This document shows positions 172 through 6,871 of a stretch of DNA of 7,454 nt, piece by piece. The first letter of the stretch is position 1. Each line of letters starts with the position of its first letter. The stretch spans positions 1-7,454 of the forward strand of contig CAKKQL010000002.1 in NCBI GenBank assembly GCA_919902095.1, given 5' to 3'. The DNA comes from Acidiferrobacterales bacterium. Lineage in GTDB: Bacteria > Pseudomonadota > Gammaproteobacteria > Acidiferrobacterales > Sulfurifustaceae. A program made the translations under genes and the position numbers. Under the pieces are notes generated by a model. That model saw only the letters and a program-made list of their open reading frames with translations, made no database searches and was not told the DNA's origin.

Positions 172-480
172 ATGCTTGAACTCAGATCCACCTGTGAGCA
201 TTGCAATAAACCCTTGCCGCCGGACTCACTTGAGGCGCGCATCTGCACGTATGAATGCACGTTCTGCGCGACGTGCGTAGATACTTTTCTGGGCAACGTC
301 TGTCCGAACTGCGGTGGCGGCTTTATGCCCAGGCCCATCAGGCCATCGAAAAACTGGAAAGGCGATAACTACCTTGGTGCTCATCCAGCGAGCACGAAAG
401 TGAAACACAGACCCGTGAACCTAGAAGAACATGCGAAGCTGTTGGCTGCACAAGGTGGTTTGCCTCCCGAGAAGCGGTGA
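172..480 (+). CDS. DUF1272-family small zinc-finger protein
   Basis: This 102-aa protein starts MLELRSTCEHC and carries eight cysteines: C8, C11, C25, C29, C32, C35, C44 and C47, ending in CPNCGG. They probably bind two zinc ions. The sequence matches the DUF1272 family as I remember it (MLELRP-type start, ECTFC block, CPNCGG end). The biochemical role of that family is unknown. The C-terminal half (about residues 52-102) is charged and without cysteines. The start at 172 is preferred over an in-frame ATG at 139 because AAGGGAG (161-167) lies just ahead of it, the family normally begins at MLEL, and 139 falls in the promoter region. The gene lies downstream of a TetR-type operator and 16 bases upstream of an attC-like site, so it may be both repressor-controlled and part of an integron cassette. 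The upstream limit of that cassette is not visible. Confidence 0.85.
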   Translation: MLELRSTCEHCNKPLPPDSLEARICTYECTFCATCVDTFLGNVCPNCGGGFMPRPIRPSKNWKGDNYLGAHPASTKVKHRPVNLEEHAKLLAAQGGLPPEKR

Positions 481-496
481 TGCAAAAAACTAAAAC

Positions 497-584
497 GGCT
501 AACAACGCCATCAACACGGACAGTGAAAAGCGGCGCGCCTTCGTCGCACCGCTTTTCACTGTCGGTTATGGCGAACATTAGGGC
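497..584 (+). other. attC-like integron recombination site 1
   Basis: This imperfect palindrome has the layout of an attC site. The R'' box GGCTAAC (497-503) is followed by a 3-base spacer, and GCCAT (507-511) pairs with ATGGC (568-572) as the L boxes. A perfect 15-bp stem follows (519-533 with 549-563), with two unpaired bases on the left strand (A516 and G518), as expected for extrahelical bases. On the right a 4-base spacer leads to the R' box ATTAGGG (577-583). The R' box has A where the conserved G of GTT should be, at the crossover position, so the site may be impaired. No T-run follows the stem, which argues against a terminator. It would be the attC of the DUF1272 cassette. Confidence 0.75.
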
Positions 585-586
585 CA

Positions 587-617
587 TTGGTACGAGCTAA
601 AGACGGCTGAATATACT
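587..617 (+). promoter_or_regulatory. Possible promoter inside the cassette
   Basis: TTGGTA (587-592, 4 of 6 bases of a -35) and TATACT (612-617, 5 of 6 bases of a -10) precede the yciI-like gene. The 19-base spacer is longer than the optimum, so activity is uncertain. Most integron cassettes lack a promoter and depend on an upstream Pc, which is not seen here. Confidence 0.3.
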
Positions 618-649
618 CAACCCTCCAATTTGATGGGAGAATAAGTCCG

Positions 650-937
650 ATGTTTATCGTGCTTCTTAAATTTTCTGGCAATAAAGGCCGAGCCAGCCAA
701 TTCATGGAAGACCACAAAAAATGGATCAAACGCGGTTTTGATGACGGCGTGTTTTTGGTGGTCGGTAGTCTTCAGGCCAACTTGGGTGGTGGAATTTTGG
801 CGCACAATACGCCGCTGCCAGACCTTTTAAGCAGGGTGAATGACGATCCGTTTGTGGTGGAAAATGTGGTAAGCGCGGAAATTATTGAAATTACGCCATC
901 AAAAACCGATGAGCGGCTACAGTTTCTCTTCGACTGA
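650..937 (+). CDS. YciI-family protein
   Basis: This 95-aa protein has the normal length and fold signature of the YciI family, a small ferredoxin-like alpha/beta barrel dimer. It begins MFIVLLKFSGNK and contains FMEDHKKWIKRG, then DDGVFLVVGS, an LGGGILAH block and a DPFVVENVV segment, ending in an EIIEI strand. The histidine H22 and the following aspartates D31/D32 correspond to the conserved His/Asp pair proposed as active-site residues in this family. The physiological reaction of most members is unknown. The start is supported by GGGAGA (635-640) nine bases ahead. The stop is only 8 bases from the next start codon, so it is probably co-transcribed with the broken tag gene. Base composition is AT-richer than the right half of the window. 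The family call is firm; the function is open. Confidence 0.85.
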   Translation: MFIVLLKFSGNKGRASQFMEDHKKWIKRGFDDGVFLVVGSLQANLGGGILAHNTPLPDLLSRVNDDPFVVENVVSAEIIEITPSKTDERLQFLFD

Positions 938-945
938 GTAGACAG

Positions 946-1545
946 ATGAGCACGACGATTGTCGGTCCCGACGGCAAATCACGTTGCCGCTGGTGCGGCG
1001 CCGCACCAGAGTTTCTGGCCTATCACGACACTGAATGGGGTTTTCCAGTCAGCGATGATCATCGCTTATTCGAGAAATTGAGTCTGGAGGGTTTTCAATC
1101 CGGACTGAGCTGGCGCACCATCCTCGCCTAGCGCGGGAATTTCCGCGCCGCCTTCCATAATTTCGATTTTGACAGGATAGCGCACTTCACCCAGCGCGAC
1201 CTTGATCGTCTGCTCAAAGACGAAGGAATCATCCGCCACCGCGGCAAGATCGAGGCAGCCATCAATAATGCCCGGCGGGCCCGGGAGATCGTGAAACGGG
1301 AAGGCTCGCTGGCAGCCTTCGTCTGGCGTTACGAACCAGACATGAAGCAACTTGCGGAACCGCAGACTGCCTCGACCTCGGCGGAATCGCTTGCTTTGTC
1401 GAAGGATCTGAAAAAGCTGGGCTGGAAATTCGTCGGACCCACCACGGTGTATGCCTTCATGCAAGCAATGGGGCTGATCAACGATCATGTCGTGGACTGC
1501 GTGATCAGAAGCAAAGTTGAGCGCGCGCGCAAGAGTTTCAAGTGA
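946..1545 (+). pseudogene. tag: DNA-3-methyladenine glycosylase I (Tag), interrupted by an amber codon
   Basis: Read through, the frame gives about 199 residues that match Tag from end to end. Tag is the base-excision enzyme that removes 3-methyladenine from alkylated DNA. Zinc ligands are present: C14, H27, and the H and C of NDHVVDC near the C-terminus. E48 and W56 sit where E. coli Tag has E38 and W46, which bind the base in the active-site pocket. GIIRHRGK and TSTSAES blocks are also intact. Codon 62 (1129-1131) is TAG where relatives have lysine (E. coli VLKKREN versus ILA-stop-RGN here), so one A-to-T change from AAG explains it. The nearby glutamate of the RENF block is also changed to glycine. 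Apart from the stop, the frame is continuous with no indel. No good start lies soon after the stop, so a functional product needs readthrough. A sequencing error cannot be excluded. The ribosome site ahead of 946 is weak. Confidence 0.88.
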
Positions 1546-1648
1546 CCGGGGCGCTGACATACGACGCGTTCAATTTCGGAACCGTGGAGAGGTCACAATG
1601 AAATAAGTCGGAACAAGATGCTATTTCTGAGATTCCCAAGAATATGAG

Positions 1649-1736
1649 CCCTAACAATCGCATGCACGCGGACAGCAAAAAGCGCCGCTCGTTCCTCGCT
1701 CTGCTTTTTTGCTGCCGGTGATGCGCAGCGTTAGTC
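1649..1736 (+). other. attC integron recombination site 2
   Basis: This 88-base imperfect palindrome shows all attC parts. R'' CCCTAAC (1649-1655) pairs over five bases with R' GTTAGTC (1730-1736), which keeps the conserved GTT crossover triplet. The L boxes CGCAT (1659-1663) and ATGCG (1721-1725) pair. The unpaired spacers are 3 bases on the left and 4 on the right, the same as in site 1. The stem continues with CAC/GTG, CGG/CCG and CAGCAAAAA against TTTTTTGCTG. Unpaired bases G1668 and A1672 occur only on the left strand, matching extrahelical bases. It shares the blocks CTAACAA, CGGACAG and AAAAGCG with site 1. It lies 103 bases after tag and 4 bases from the macB stop codon. Confidence 0.88.
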
Positions 1737-1740
1737 CACG

Positions 1741-3693
1741 CTACTCGTACCTTAACGCCTCGATGGGATGCAGCCCCGCGGCCTTGCGCGCGGGGTAGTA
1801 ACCGAAGGCGATGCCGATGCCGGCGGAGAATACGAACGCCAGCAGCGCGTGCAGCGGCGAGACCGCCGTGGCCCAACCGGCGAGCAGCGACATGCCGAGT
1901 GTCGTCAGCACGCCGAGGGCGATGCCGAGTAAGCCGCCCACCGCGCTCACCGTCACCGCCTCCAGCAGGAACTGCGTGAGGATGTCGCGCCGGCAGGCGC
2001 CGACGGCCTTGCGCAGGCCGATTTCGCGTGTGCGCTCGGTCACCGACACCAGCATGATGTTCATGATGCCGATACCGCCGACGAGCAGCGAGATCGCGGC
2101 GATCGAGGCCAGCAGCCACGACATGGTGCGGCTGGTTTCGGACAGTGCCGCCTGGATGTCGGCCAGATTGCGGATCTGGTAGGCGTCCTGGCGCTGCGAC
2201 GCCGCGACGCGGTGGCGCGAGAGCATGAGTTCGTTCACCGCCGCGGTCGTGGCCTCGGCCTCCGCCGGGCTGCGCACCTCGATGTCGACGTAGTCCAGAT
2301 AATCCTTGCCGAGCAGCCGGTGCATGGCGGTCAGCAGCGGAATCACCACCACATCGTCCTGGTCGCGCCAGCCGGTGGCGCCCTTCTCCGGCAGGATGCC
2401 GATGACCTGAAAACCCACCTTGTTGACCTTGATGGTCTCGCCGATGGGATCCTGGTTGTCGAACACCTCGCGCAGGATGGTGCGGCCGATGAGTGCGACG
2501 CGCGCGCGCCGACGGTTCTCATCCTCGGTAAAGAAGCGCCCGACATCCGGCTGCGAGGCGCGCATCTGCGCGTAGGCCGGGCCGGTGCCCATGATCTGGG
2601 TGTTCCAGTTGCGATTGAGGTAACTCACCTGCCCGCGCCCGGTGACGGTGCCCGAGGCCTCGCGCACCGACGGCAGCGTTTCCTTGATGACCGTGACATC
2701 TTCGATCGTCAGGCGCGTGGCCGCGCCGGCCTCGACGGCGACGCCGCCGACGCGCACCGCGCCCTGGCGCAACAACAGCAGGTTCGAGCCAAGCGCCGAC
2801 AGGCGCGCCTCGATGTCACGCTTGGCGCCCTGCCCGAGCGCCAGCATCGCCACCACCGATGCCACGCCGATGAGGATGCCGAGCATGGACAGGCCGGTGC
2901 GGACCTTGTTGGCCGCGAGCGTCTTCAGGCCCTGGCGCAGGTGCTCGCGGATTTCGGTGAAGGTCAGGCGCGTGTCGGCGGCGAGCGAGGGTGCCGCCGC
3001 GGCCGCGGGTTTCTTCCCGCTACGCTCCTTCGACTCGTCCGACTGAATCATGCCGTCGCGCAGGCGGAGAATGCGCCGCGCGTGGTGTGCCACCTCCTCC
3101 TCGTGCGTGACGATGATGACCGTGATGCCCTGCGCGTTGAGGCTCTCCAGCAGCGCCATGATCTCGCGTTGCGACTCGCTGTCGAGATTGCCGGTGGGCT
3201 CGTCGGCGAGAATCACGCGCGGGGCGTTGATGAGCGAACGCGCGATGGCCACGCGCTGCTGCTGGCCGCCGGAAAGCTCGTTCGAGCGGTGGTGGACGCG
3301 GTCACCCAGGCCGACCTGTTTCAGCAACTCCGCCGCGCGTCCGGTTTCCAGGCGGTGGCGCGAGTAGATCAGCGGCAGCGCGGTGTTTTCGAGCGCGGAC
3401 ATGCGCGGCAACAGATTGAACTGCTGGAACACGAAACCGATGGCCTCGCGCCGCAGCACCGCCAGCTCGTCGTCGGAGAGGTGCGCCGCCTCGCGCCCGT
3501 AGAGGCGGTAGGAACCTTTGTCCGGCACGTCCAGCAGCCCGAGCACGTGCATGAGCGTGGATTTGCCGGAGCCGGACGGCCCCATGATGGCGACGAACTC
3601 GCCGGGTGCGATGGTCAGCGATACGCCGCGCAGCGCGTACACCATGTTGTCGCCCATGCGGTACGACTTGTGGACGTCCCGAAGCTCCAGCAT
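1741..3693 (-). CDS. macB: MacB-type ABC transporter, fused ATPase and permease
   Basis: This 650-aa protein is close in length to E. coli MacB (648 aa). Residues 1-220 form the ATPase: Walker [10 protein letters not shown] (38-46), Q-loop Q90, signature LSGGQQQ (140-146), Walker B ILADEP (161-166) and H-loop H197. An Ala/Lys-rich linker leads to membrane segment 1 (about 268-287), a large periplasmic domain, and three more segments (about 525-549, 575-603 and 612-632) before the typical ALRYE end. MacB-type proteins do not carry substrate across the inner membrane. They use ATP in the cytoplasm to drive periplasmic substrates through MacA and TolC. Known substrates of relatives include macrolides, peptides and lipids; none can be assigned here. 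The ATG at 3693 fits the [11 protein letters not shown] start; the longer frame would need a TTG at 3738 inside macA. It starts 7 bases after the macA stop, so it is probably translationally coupled. Confidence 0.93.
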
Positions 3694-3700
3694 GGCGGGG

Positions 3701-4678
3701 CTACTTCTTCTGCGTCGAGGTGCGGCCGAAGGTGGCAAACGGATTGGTGCCGCCGGCGCGCTTCTCGGTCTTGATCTGTGCCATCCGCACCTTCTCGCCC
3801 TCGCGCAGCCCTTCGACGATCTCGGTGAACTTGCCGTCGGTCAGGCCGGGCTGCACGGCGCGCTCCTCCCGGCCGCCGCCGTCCGCCACCTGCACGTAGG
3901 CCTGGCCGTCGCGCACCTGGAGCGCGCGGCTCGGGACGCGCACCACGTCCTCCTTCGAGGCCACCTGGAACGCCACGCTCACGGTCATGCCGCTGCGCAT
4001 GAACGGCGGCACCTTTTCCGGCAGCACGTCCACGGTGTAGGTGGTGACGTTGTTCACGGTCTTGGCCTCGTAGGCGACGGCGCCGACCTCGGCCGGAATC
4101 GCCTCGCTCGGGTAGGCATCCAGGGTAATCCGCGCCTTCTGTTTGGGCTGCACCTGCGCAATGTCGGTCTCGTCCACCTGCGCCTGGACGATCAGGCGAT
4201 CGGACAGCACCAGCACCGCGTCGGCGCTGGTGAAGCTCTGGCCGGGCTCGACGTTGCGCTTGATGACGGTGCCGTGGATCGGCGAAAGAATCGGCGTGGC
4301 CTTGTAGAATTCCTCCCAGCGTTTCACCTCTTCCAGGCCGCGGGCGCGCGCGGCGTCGAGCAGTGCCGCGCGCTCGCTGGAACTCATCCACGCCAGAATC
4401 TGGCCCTTGCCGACGGCCTGGCCTTCCTGCACCAGCACCTGCTCCACGCGCCCGGCGAGCGGCGGTTTGATTTCAAGGCGGTTGCGCGGCTGCACCGTGC
4501 CATTGGCGAGAATGCTGATTTCGATATTGCCGCGCGTGACCTCGACCTCGCGCACGCCGTCGGCGTTGCCGCGACCCGGACGCACGAACCACGCCACCAG
4601 AACGACAACGATGAGCGCCGCGATGCCAAGCGCGATCAACTTCTGCCGGCGCGTAAGGCTCGCCAGATTCAGCTTCAC
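3701..4678 (-). CDS. macA: MacA-type periplasmic adaptor (membrane-fusion protein)
   Basis: This 325-aa protein links the MacB-type permease to the TolC-type channel. It has a short cytoplasmic start, one membrane anchor (about 14-32), two half-lipoyl motifs (about 67-98 and 127-150), a beta-barrel domain around the VDETDIAQV block, and a membrane-proximal domain with PPFMRSGMTV. The helical hairpin between the lipoyl halves is only about 28 residues (99-127, from SSSERAALLDAA to EEFYK). E. coli MacA has a long coiled-coil hairpin there that contacts TolC. The same short form occurs, from memory, in other adaptors of MacB-type pumps, so it need not be a deletion. The GTG start at 4678 overlaps the tolC-type stop as GTGA and has GGGGGTG just ahead of it. 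A GTG at 4711 is possible but would lengthen the overlap. The C-terminal tail is short and polar. Confidence 0.9.
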   Translation of the reverse strand: MKLNLASLTRRQKLIALGIAALIVVVLVAWFVRPGRGNADGVREVEVTRGNIEISILANGTVQPRNRLEIKPPLAGRVEQVLVQEGQAVGKGQILAWMSSSERAALLDAARARGLEEVKRWEEFYKATPILSPIHGTVIKRNVEPGQSFTSADAVLVLSDRLIVQAQVDETDIAQVQPKQKARITLDAYPSEAIPAEVGAVAYEAKTVNNVTTYTVDVLPEKVPPFMRSGMTVSVAFQVASKEDVVRVPSRALQVRDGQAYVQVADGGGREERAVQPGLTDGKFTEIVEGLREGEKVRMAQIKTEKRAGGTNPFATFGRTSTQKK

Positions 4679-6047: not shown

Positions 6048-6173
6048 CTAGCGGGAGCGGTATTTGGCGGCGTAATGGGCGCGCAGCACCGTGCGCGTCT
6101 GGGCGTTTAGCTTCGGGTTGCGCGTGGCGGCGGTGCTGGCGGGTGCCGCGCCCTGTTTTCGTTTCCGTTTCAT
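6048..6173 (-). CDS. 41-aa highly basic hypothetical protein
   Basis: The frame starts MKRKRKQGAAPAS and ends AHYAAKYRSR, with about twelve Lys/Arg residues in 41 and almost no acidic residues. It has no membrane segment, cysteine or signal peptide. Its ATG overlaps the stop of the zinc-ribbon gene as ATGA, so translation by coupling or reinitiation is plausible and is the main support for it being real. The basic N-terminus suggests RNA or DNA binding, or contact with an acidic partner, but that is only inference. I do not recognise the family. It ends 107 bases before the tolC-type start codon. Confidence 0.5.
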   Translation of the reverse strand: MKRKRKQGAAPASTAATRNPKLNAQTRTVLRAHYAAKYRSR

Positions 6174-6568
6174 GTCTGCTTCGGCTTGTCGCCCTTGCCC
6201 TTGCCGCCAAGCAGTTCATCGAGCCGGGCTCGCGTCGCGTCGGCCTTGGGGGCCGGTTCCGGCGCGCCGCCAAACAGGGCATCGATCCCGGCCTTCGCGG
6301 CCTGGGTCTTGCCCGCGCCGGGCGGCTGGTGGGCGTCGGGCCGCGGCTTGAACCAGTCGCAGAAATTCGCATGTTCCTTGTCGCGCACCTCCTCGGCGCG
6401 TTCCTCGCGGCACTTGCCCGTCAGGCGCGGATCGTAGAATTCGCACATCCGGCAGACGTGCTGGTAGGCGCGGCATTTCGGGCACTCGGCCAGGCGGCTC
6501 AGGGGCAGTGGCAGCTCGGCGAGCGCCGCGCCGCATTTCCAGCAGACGAATGCCGACGCCGTGCGCAC
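6170..6568 (-). CDS. Zinc-ribbon hypothetical protein, 132 aa
   Basis: Eight cysteines fall in the first 70 residues. C9/C12 and C29/C32 form a classic CxxC...CxxC zinc ribbon (CWKC and CPKC). C39/C42 (HVCRMCEFYDP), C53 and C70 (NFCDWFKP) look like a second metal site. The last 60 residues are low-complexity Ala/Pro/Lys with two similar short motifs, IDALFGG and LDELLGG, which may be a repeated docking helix. There is no signal peptide, so it is probably cytoplasmic. The start is a GTG at 6568, 3 bases after the stop of the upstream gene. Its own stop overlaps the 41-aa gene as ATGA. I do not recognise a named family; a small zinc-binding regulatory or assembly protein is a guess from the cysteines. 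Confidence 0.78.
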   Translation of the reverse strand: MRTASAFVCWKCGAALAELPLPLSRLAECPKCRAYQHVCRMCEFYDPRLTGKCREERAEEVRDKEHANFCDWFKPRPDAHQPPGAGKTQAAKAGIDALFGGAPEPAPKADATRARLDELLGGKGKGDKPKQT

Positions 6569-6571
6569 GGC

Positions 6572-6871
6572 TCAGGCGCGACCGACGTTGGCGTCGGCCG
6601 GCGAGTGGTAATACTCGCTTTCCTCGGCGAGCTGCTTCACCTGCCGCATCAGCTCGGTCATGCGTCCGTCGGCGGTGCTCACCGGCAGGCAATCGGTGCA
6701 GCGCGGGTCGCCGCAGGGCTGGCGCGAATAGAGCCAGTACTGGAGGGCGCCGGCGAGCAGGCCGTCGGCGATGTCCCAGCGGTCGGCGTCGTTGTCGGCA
6801 TCGGCCAGGCGATTGCCGAGTCGCACCACCTGGTCGAAGGTGTCGTCGAATACGGTTTCGGACTGGGTCAT
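6572..6871 (-). CDS. Hypothetical protein, 99 aa, with CxxxxCxxC cluster
   Basis: The protein begins MTQSETVFDDTFDQVVRLGN and looks largely alpha-helical. A single cysteine cluster, PCGDPRCTDC (about residues 53-62), follows LQYWLYSRQ, and a second helix (MTELMRQVKQLAEESEYY) ends the fold. Three cysteines plus a nearby polar residue could bind a metal. There is no signal peptide or membrane segment. The ATG at 6871 has a very strong ribosome site (GAGGAGG at 6884-6878, 6 bases away), so this is the lead gene of the three-gene leftward cluster. The next gene starts 3 bases after its stop. I do not recognise the family. The shared cysteine-rich character with the next gene suggests that they work together, by inference only. 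Confidence 0.75.
   Translation of the reverse strand: MTQSETVFDDTFDQVVRLGNRLADADNDADRWDIADGLLAGALQYWLYSRQPCGDPRCTDCLPVSTADGRMTELMRQVKQLAEESEYYHSPADANVGRA

Follow-up and report, generated by a model that had tools for sequence, protein, structure and literature searches.

We propose, with a probability of about 0.92, that positions 152-1730 of a 7,454-nucleotide stretch from an Acidiferrobacterales bacterium (assembly GCA_919902095.1, contig CAKKQL010000002.1; the whole stretch is called the window below) are two tandem integron cassettes, flanked by the native macB and tetR and without an integrase on the contig, i.e., a two-site cluster of attC sites lacking an integron-integrase (CALIN). 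As far as sequence comparison goes, five observations carry this reading: the two attC sites, their kinship to arrays that bear an integrase, the borders of the insert, its foreign composition, and its absence from the same locus of the nearest relative, genome G048. We infer that the cassettes were placed here by an integrase, because the insert borders fall on crossover points. The two sites had been located, at the right bases, by an unaided reading of the raw sequence, hereafter the sequence-only reading.

Two attC sites in one orientation

The sequence-only reading had placed matching attC sites at 497-584 and 1649-1736. Both were matched by an attC covariance model of our own making (not that of IntegronFinder), which describes the R and L helices and was built from 30 sites of 14 integron loci. 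The source was a set of integrase loci, 19 in all (15 of the window's own order, 4 of betaproteobacterial genomes), in which sites were picked with a Python scorer as TAAC...GTTA with complementary arms; 35 were aligned and 30 kept. By construction of this picking, GTTA is universal and the innermost R-box pairs are invariant among the training sites. Left out of the training were the two sites most like those of the window (L156:3037-3123 and L147:7776-7856), a near-duplicate (L156:3707-3794) and two poor aligners (L143:13476-13545 and L158:7780-7866). With filters off, the model placed attC2 at 1649-1736 (43.6 bits, E 1.8e-8) and attC1 at 497-583 (36.7 bits, E 6.5e-7), and the third-best match in the window reached 8.9 bits (E 1.1). 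Both matches persisted under default filters and run end to end (1-80 of 80), and the sites lie in one orientation (+ strand), ~1.15 kb apart.

In 80 loci fetched for MacB (1,251,062 bases) no match to the model was found at E≤1 under default filters. On the 19 integron loci, training sites included, 83 matches were obtained at E≤0.1, in 17 of the 19; L148 and L159 gave none at this threshold although they are integron loci. Another 36 loci (258,604 bases) yielded four matches at E≤0.5 (two in genome G040, one in L182 and one in L172), which are likely attC sites. The latter two (L182:1250-1309, genome G039, 38 bits; L172:582-648, genome G037, 36 bits) are single matches in loci fetched for tagI and DUF1272. 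The pairs of the model structure hold in 84% of cells, versus 30-40% when shifted by 1 to 3 columns, and the pairing statistics stood above those of shuffles on four of five measures.

The R boxes claimed for both sites are present, with one alteration. In attC2, the left R box is CCCTAAC (1649-1655) and the right one is G↓TTAGTC (G at 1730, TTAGTC at 1731-1736; the arrow marks the crossover point). In attC1, the left R box is GGCTAAC (497-503) and the right one CA↓TTAGGG (576-583), an A replacing the G before the crossover; it thus reads CATTAG, versus GTTAG in attC2 and in the close relatives of these sites in genomes G052 and G048. On the bottom strand of attC1 the AAC triplet therefore reads AAT, and the base replaced there is one that recombination needs. 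For this reason attC1 is probably a poor recombiner. Excerpts of PMC8191803 place the insertion within this AAC triplet of attC.

The likeness of the two sites that had been pointed out amounts to 74% identity over 73 nt. In a consensus fold of both sites and two relatives, the R helix is conserved, the spacers (2 and 3 nt) are unpaired and an L region is present; 7 of the 29 pairs keep pairing in some sequence despite changes on both sides. Extrahelical bases occur in the left arm only, as had been read; their number is three (single bases at alignment columns 18, 22 and 26, none opposite on the right) rather than two. The bottom strand of attC1 folds far better than expected (z -8.2; 0 of 200 shuffles as good). 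The closest kin of both sites is an attC of G052, a genome of the same order (L156:3124-3039): nhmmer gave E 5.6e-12 for attC1 (86% over 72 nt) and E 6e-10 for attC2 (81% over 83 nt). This site sits ~1.8 kb from, and in an array ahead of, an intI gene (L156:4946-5890), the array having nine matches in one orientation. For attC1, an attC of G048 (L147:7853-7777) was also matched (E 1.2e-4).

Cassette 1 carries a DUF1272 gene

Cassette 1 (152-577, + strand) consists of a leader beginning TTCAGC, a DUF1272 gene, and attC1 up to its crossover point. The gene (172-480, + strand) encodes 102 amino acids (PF06906, 98.5 bits) and ends 16 bases before attC1. The left border was placed from two sides: the similarity to the G048 tetR promoter region stops at about 151, and the DUF1272 leaders of G340, G302, G390 and G050, which start TTAGCC after a G, align with the window from the TTCAGC at 152 to the ATG. 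In G340, attC sites stand on either side of the DUF1272 gene (76% identical), at distances of 18 and 19 bases from its ends; the gene belongs to a complete integron with 15 matches in one orientation, and intI is on the same contig at a distance of ~3.5 kb. The G390 gene has an attC 19 bases upstream, and its similarity to the window (172-527, at 76%) begins at the start codon and continues into the left attC1 arm. In G302, the gene is part of an array of 10 matches at E<0.06; the attC on its downstream side, at 17 bases, is weak (20.8 bits), and the one on its upstream side is at 129 bases (25.6 bits). The unit of DUF1272 gene and attC recurs with the same border in other contexts, in G340 and G390 and, more weakly, in G302. 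A literature search pairing DUF1272 with integrons found nothing.

The sequence-only reading had bracketed a single cassette. That cassette (578-1730) stands; because the DUF1272 gene is also a cassette gene, there are two cassettes, and the insert spans about 152 to 1730.

Cassette 2 carries a YciI-like gene and a broken tagI

Cassette 2 (578-1730, + strand) consists of a leader beginning TTAGGGC, a YciI-like gene, a broken tagI, and attC2 up to its crossover point. The YciI-like protein (650-937, + strand; 95 amino acids) has 4287 relatives at E≤1e-3, some of them named "uncharacterized protein YciI" at source, and no Pfam or NCBIfam match at E≤0.01. An identical YciI protein is on record from seven contigs, of which the longest measures 173 kb. 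The tagI gene, for DNA-3-methyladenine glycosylase I (946-1545, + strand), is interrupted by an in-frame TAG at 1129-1131; PF03352 was found on both pieces (66.9 and 151.9 bits). Open copies are present in the relatives G400, G048 and G038, and the stop may be a sequencing error. Compared with G400 over the 137 codons after the stop, tagI has 17 changed residues and 28 silent codons, with no clear excess. An intact product would repair 3-methyladenine; here it is likely not intact.

The cassette has a counterpart in G400 (L235:6735-8518, contig G400:C16), where a YciI-tagI unit with a homologous leader starts from the same TTAGGGC and the upstream sequence is different. G400 diverges from window position 1581 onward: it has one extra small gene and then a weak attC (24.5 bits). 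The unit adjoins a histidine-kinase-like gene, and intI is on another contig. The YciI-tagI unit is found again there with the same 5′ border, and its 3′ part differs.

The gene pair itself is widespread: both parts of tagI lie beside the YciI gene in 13 of 21 loci of the class, a part in 2 more, and none in 6. It is possible that the YciI-like gene is linked to alkylation repair. On plasmids, tagI adjoins the YciI match in some cases. Matches to the interval were found in 73 plasmid records, none covering 80% of it, and the ten matches listed fall on tagI; the YciI protein had matches in 62 plasmid records. No phage sequence matched the interval. In IMG/VR, 13 stretches fitting the search pattern were obtained, with no YciI relative among them, and the attC1-like pattern had no match.

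Native flanks and the same locus in G048

The right flank is macB (1741-3738, - strand), whose stop codon (1741-1743) comes 4 bases after attC2, followed by macA and tolC. By its MacB protein, the window stands near an order that was found via a 'Candidatus Muproteobacteria' assembly; of the 57 genomes of that order, G048 has the closest MacB (84% identical). On the left, a TetR-family regulator gene runs off the contig; the N-terminal part that is present (2-109, - strand) is 97% identical over 35 amino acids to the tetR beside macB in G048. On this 35-residue translation Pfam TetR_N reached E 0.0015 and 18.7 bits, below the curated cut-off; the full-length G048 TetR reached 50.1 bits. The lower GC noted between the sites relative to the exporter operon is confirmed, at 53% in 152-1730 versus 68% in macB-macA-tolC and 57% in 1-151, and GC3 (GC at third codon positions) is 0.52-0.67 for the three cassette genes versus 0.89-0.91. 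As had been stated, there is no integrase in view: tblastn with four IntI proteins found none in the window at E≤0.01, which leaves 5.7 kb clear on the right.

G048 is the nearest relative and the only same-locus one found. It has the same macB and tetR flanks and other genes between them (L127:6845-8548): an Mrr-like restriction protein (22.7 bits), a PIN-domain protein and a 79-residue protein, the last two possibly a toxin-antitoxin pair. All three genes of the window insert are missing from this locus, so the interval is not one conserved among relatives; in the 15 fetched macB loci, neither DUF1272, YciI nor tagI was found at E≤1e-8. The gap between macB and tetR in G048 gave no attC match at E≤1. 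No empty macB-tetR site was seen among 20 loci, and of these only the one in G048 has a tetR after macB; weak TetR matches in L128, L129, L131, L133, L137, L138, L141 and L001 are on the opposite side of the operon. The spot between macB and tetR may be prone to insertion.

An integron-integrase above the family cut-off is present in 12 of the 57 genomes, G048 included (13 at E≤1e-60). The find points to chromosomal integrons in this uncultured order. In G040 (L239:1816-3318, contig G040:C88), two good and one weak attC matches stand in a row ~6.6 kb past macB, with intI on another contig, and this array is possibly another CALIN.

Points against the CALIN reading

Several results weigh against the reading proposed here. 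An Rfam scan of the window gave nothing at E≤1; Rfam is not known to include an attC family. Pairs of the covariance model changed on both sides number 8, versus 7.7 in shuffles, which is no excess, and the four extra matches in G040, L182 and L172 are unproven as attC. Folding of attC2 is modest (z -2.0; 10 of 200 shuffles as good) and unremarkable by energy alone, and with a z of only -2.0 the case for this site is carried by the model and by homology, not by stability. The crossover G of attC1 is changed to A. The DUF1272 and YciI families are mostly not cassette-borne: attC matches lie beside DUF1272 in 3 of 24 loci, a further 11 loci gave one match 670 bases from the gene, and 22 of 23 YciI loci are without an attC match, the remaining one having a match of 24.5 bits and a wrong-strand match of 16.7 bits. 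Finally, only 151 bp of the native left flank lie within the 7454-bp contig, so that an intI farther left is possible. The sequence-only reading had offered a CALIN or an integron edge. The former holds; an edge is unlikely, since the gene on the left is the tetR that occurs in G048 too, where no IntI match was found in the 15 kb fetched of that locus.

How the cassettes may have reached this locus

Just short of an even chance, in our estimate, is insertion by an integrase, in one or two steps, at an attG-like non-classical site between tetR and macB. The borders fit crossover points (TT at 152, G at 1730); the flanks, when joined, read GGCCTA↓TTAGTCCACG ahead of the macB stop codon. The bases right of the crossover resemble, by eye, the G048 sequence after macB (TAATCCCACA), and on the left side similarity to G048 reaches to about 151. 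A lone YciI-tagI cassette is found in G400 on a contig without intI, and insertion of this kind is an established activity according to excerpts of PMC12901181 and PMC12444791. The insert also fits tightly between the promoter-like site of tetR and the stop codon of macB, which slightly favours insertion over a remnant. Against insertion, the left TT is preceded by an A and not a G, attC1 has its changed base, and no empty site was found, G048 carrying other genes at the same spot. Nor is the distance between cassette and intI in G400 defined, since each lies within 6 kb of a contig end, in compatible orientation.

Under the CALIN reading, the cassettes come from the chromosomal integron pool of the lineage. 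An integrase encoded elsewhere in the genome and acting in trans, such as those of G048 and G052, would fold the attC bottom strand and join it to the target; such an enzyme could in principle move the cassettes again, attC2 better than attC1. More tentatively, with roughly one chance in three, we suggest that an integrase acting in trans put the cassettes into an attG-like site, free of attI, which lies exactly between one gene's stop codon and the promoter of the following gene, and that in this lineage the spot repeatedly takes foreign DNA (in G048, the other genes). If this is true, genomes would acquire cassettes with no local integron platform.

At somewhat under even odds, the two cassettes are what is left of an integron that was once larger here and has lost intI, attI and most of its cassettes by deletion. 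Both attC1 and tagI look decayed, and on its right side the G048 insert ends in a sequence (CCGGTCGCTAATC) that is loosely similar to the right half of an attC, although it has no model match. However, 14 of the 15 fetched macB loci have no attC at E≤0.5 (the 15th, of G040, has two ~6.6 kb past macB), no integrase from the survey of the order falls inside those macB regions, and on either side the native sequence is retained to a point only a few bases from the promoter or the stop codon.

That the sites are two terminator-like or repetitive extragenic palindromic (REP)-like hairpins of shared origin, as strong A-rich/T-rich stems at both and the end of site 2 only 4 bases from the macB stop codon might suggest, is very improbable, given that both match the R/L-box model over its full length, that similar sites occur in integrase-bound arrays, and that cassette borders in other genomes coincide with such sites.

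Other features of the window

Upstream of tetR, at 114-137, the sequence contains a 24-bp palindrome, GTAACATACCG-GA-CGGTATGTTAC, with a similar one in G048; it is predicted to be, and probably is, a TetR operator beside the exporter operon. A promoter scan of 1-2000 returned one site, the tetR-type TTGACA at 145-140 (- strand), with 1.0 expected by chance. Expression of the cassette genes is uncertain, because the only promoter-like site in this region is that of tetR, at the chance rate. To the right of the macB-macA-tolC operon are two small genes and the start of adk (Pfam ADK, 145.6 bits). The small genes (6170-6871) match nothing in Pfam or NCBIfam, and G048 has both of them (68% and 76%).

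Comparison with known systems

According to excerpts of PMC9024848, IntegronFinder 2 sets the CALIN threshold at two attC sites, and CALINs there have almost six sites on average. The window has two same-orientation sites ~1.15 kb apart, each with genes 5′ of it, and no integrase on the contig; it is smaller than those CALINs, one of its R boxes is changed, and both of its ends are placed near base level with the help of a relative. The two-cassette CALINs of Xanthomonas citri pv. citri and others of that genus, as reported in excerpts of PMC12444791, are likewise short chromosomal arrays away from or without intI. They belong to another lineage, and their positions and cassettes are common to relatives, whereas the same-locus relative of the window has unrelated genes. 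Compared with the chromosomal integrons of the same order (G048, G052 and others), the attC sites are alike in G052 and, for attC1, also in G048; those integrons have intI beside the array and the window does not. With its borders placed near base level, the insert can serve as a test case of the way in which stray cassettes arrive at loci that are not integrons. In kind the element is ordinary: CALINs are already known, and this is a well-delimited new example.
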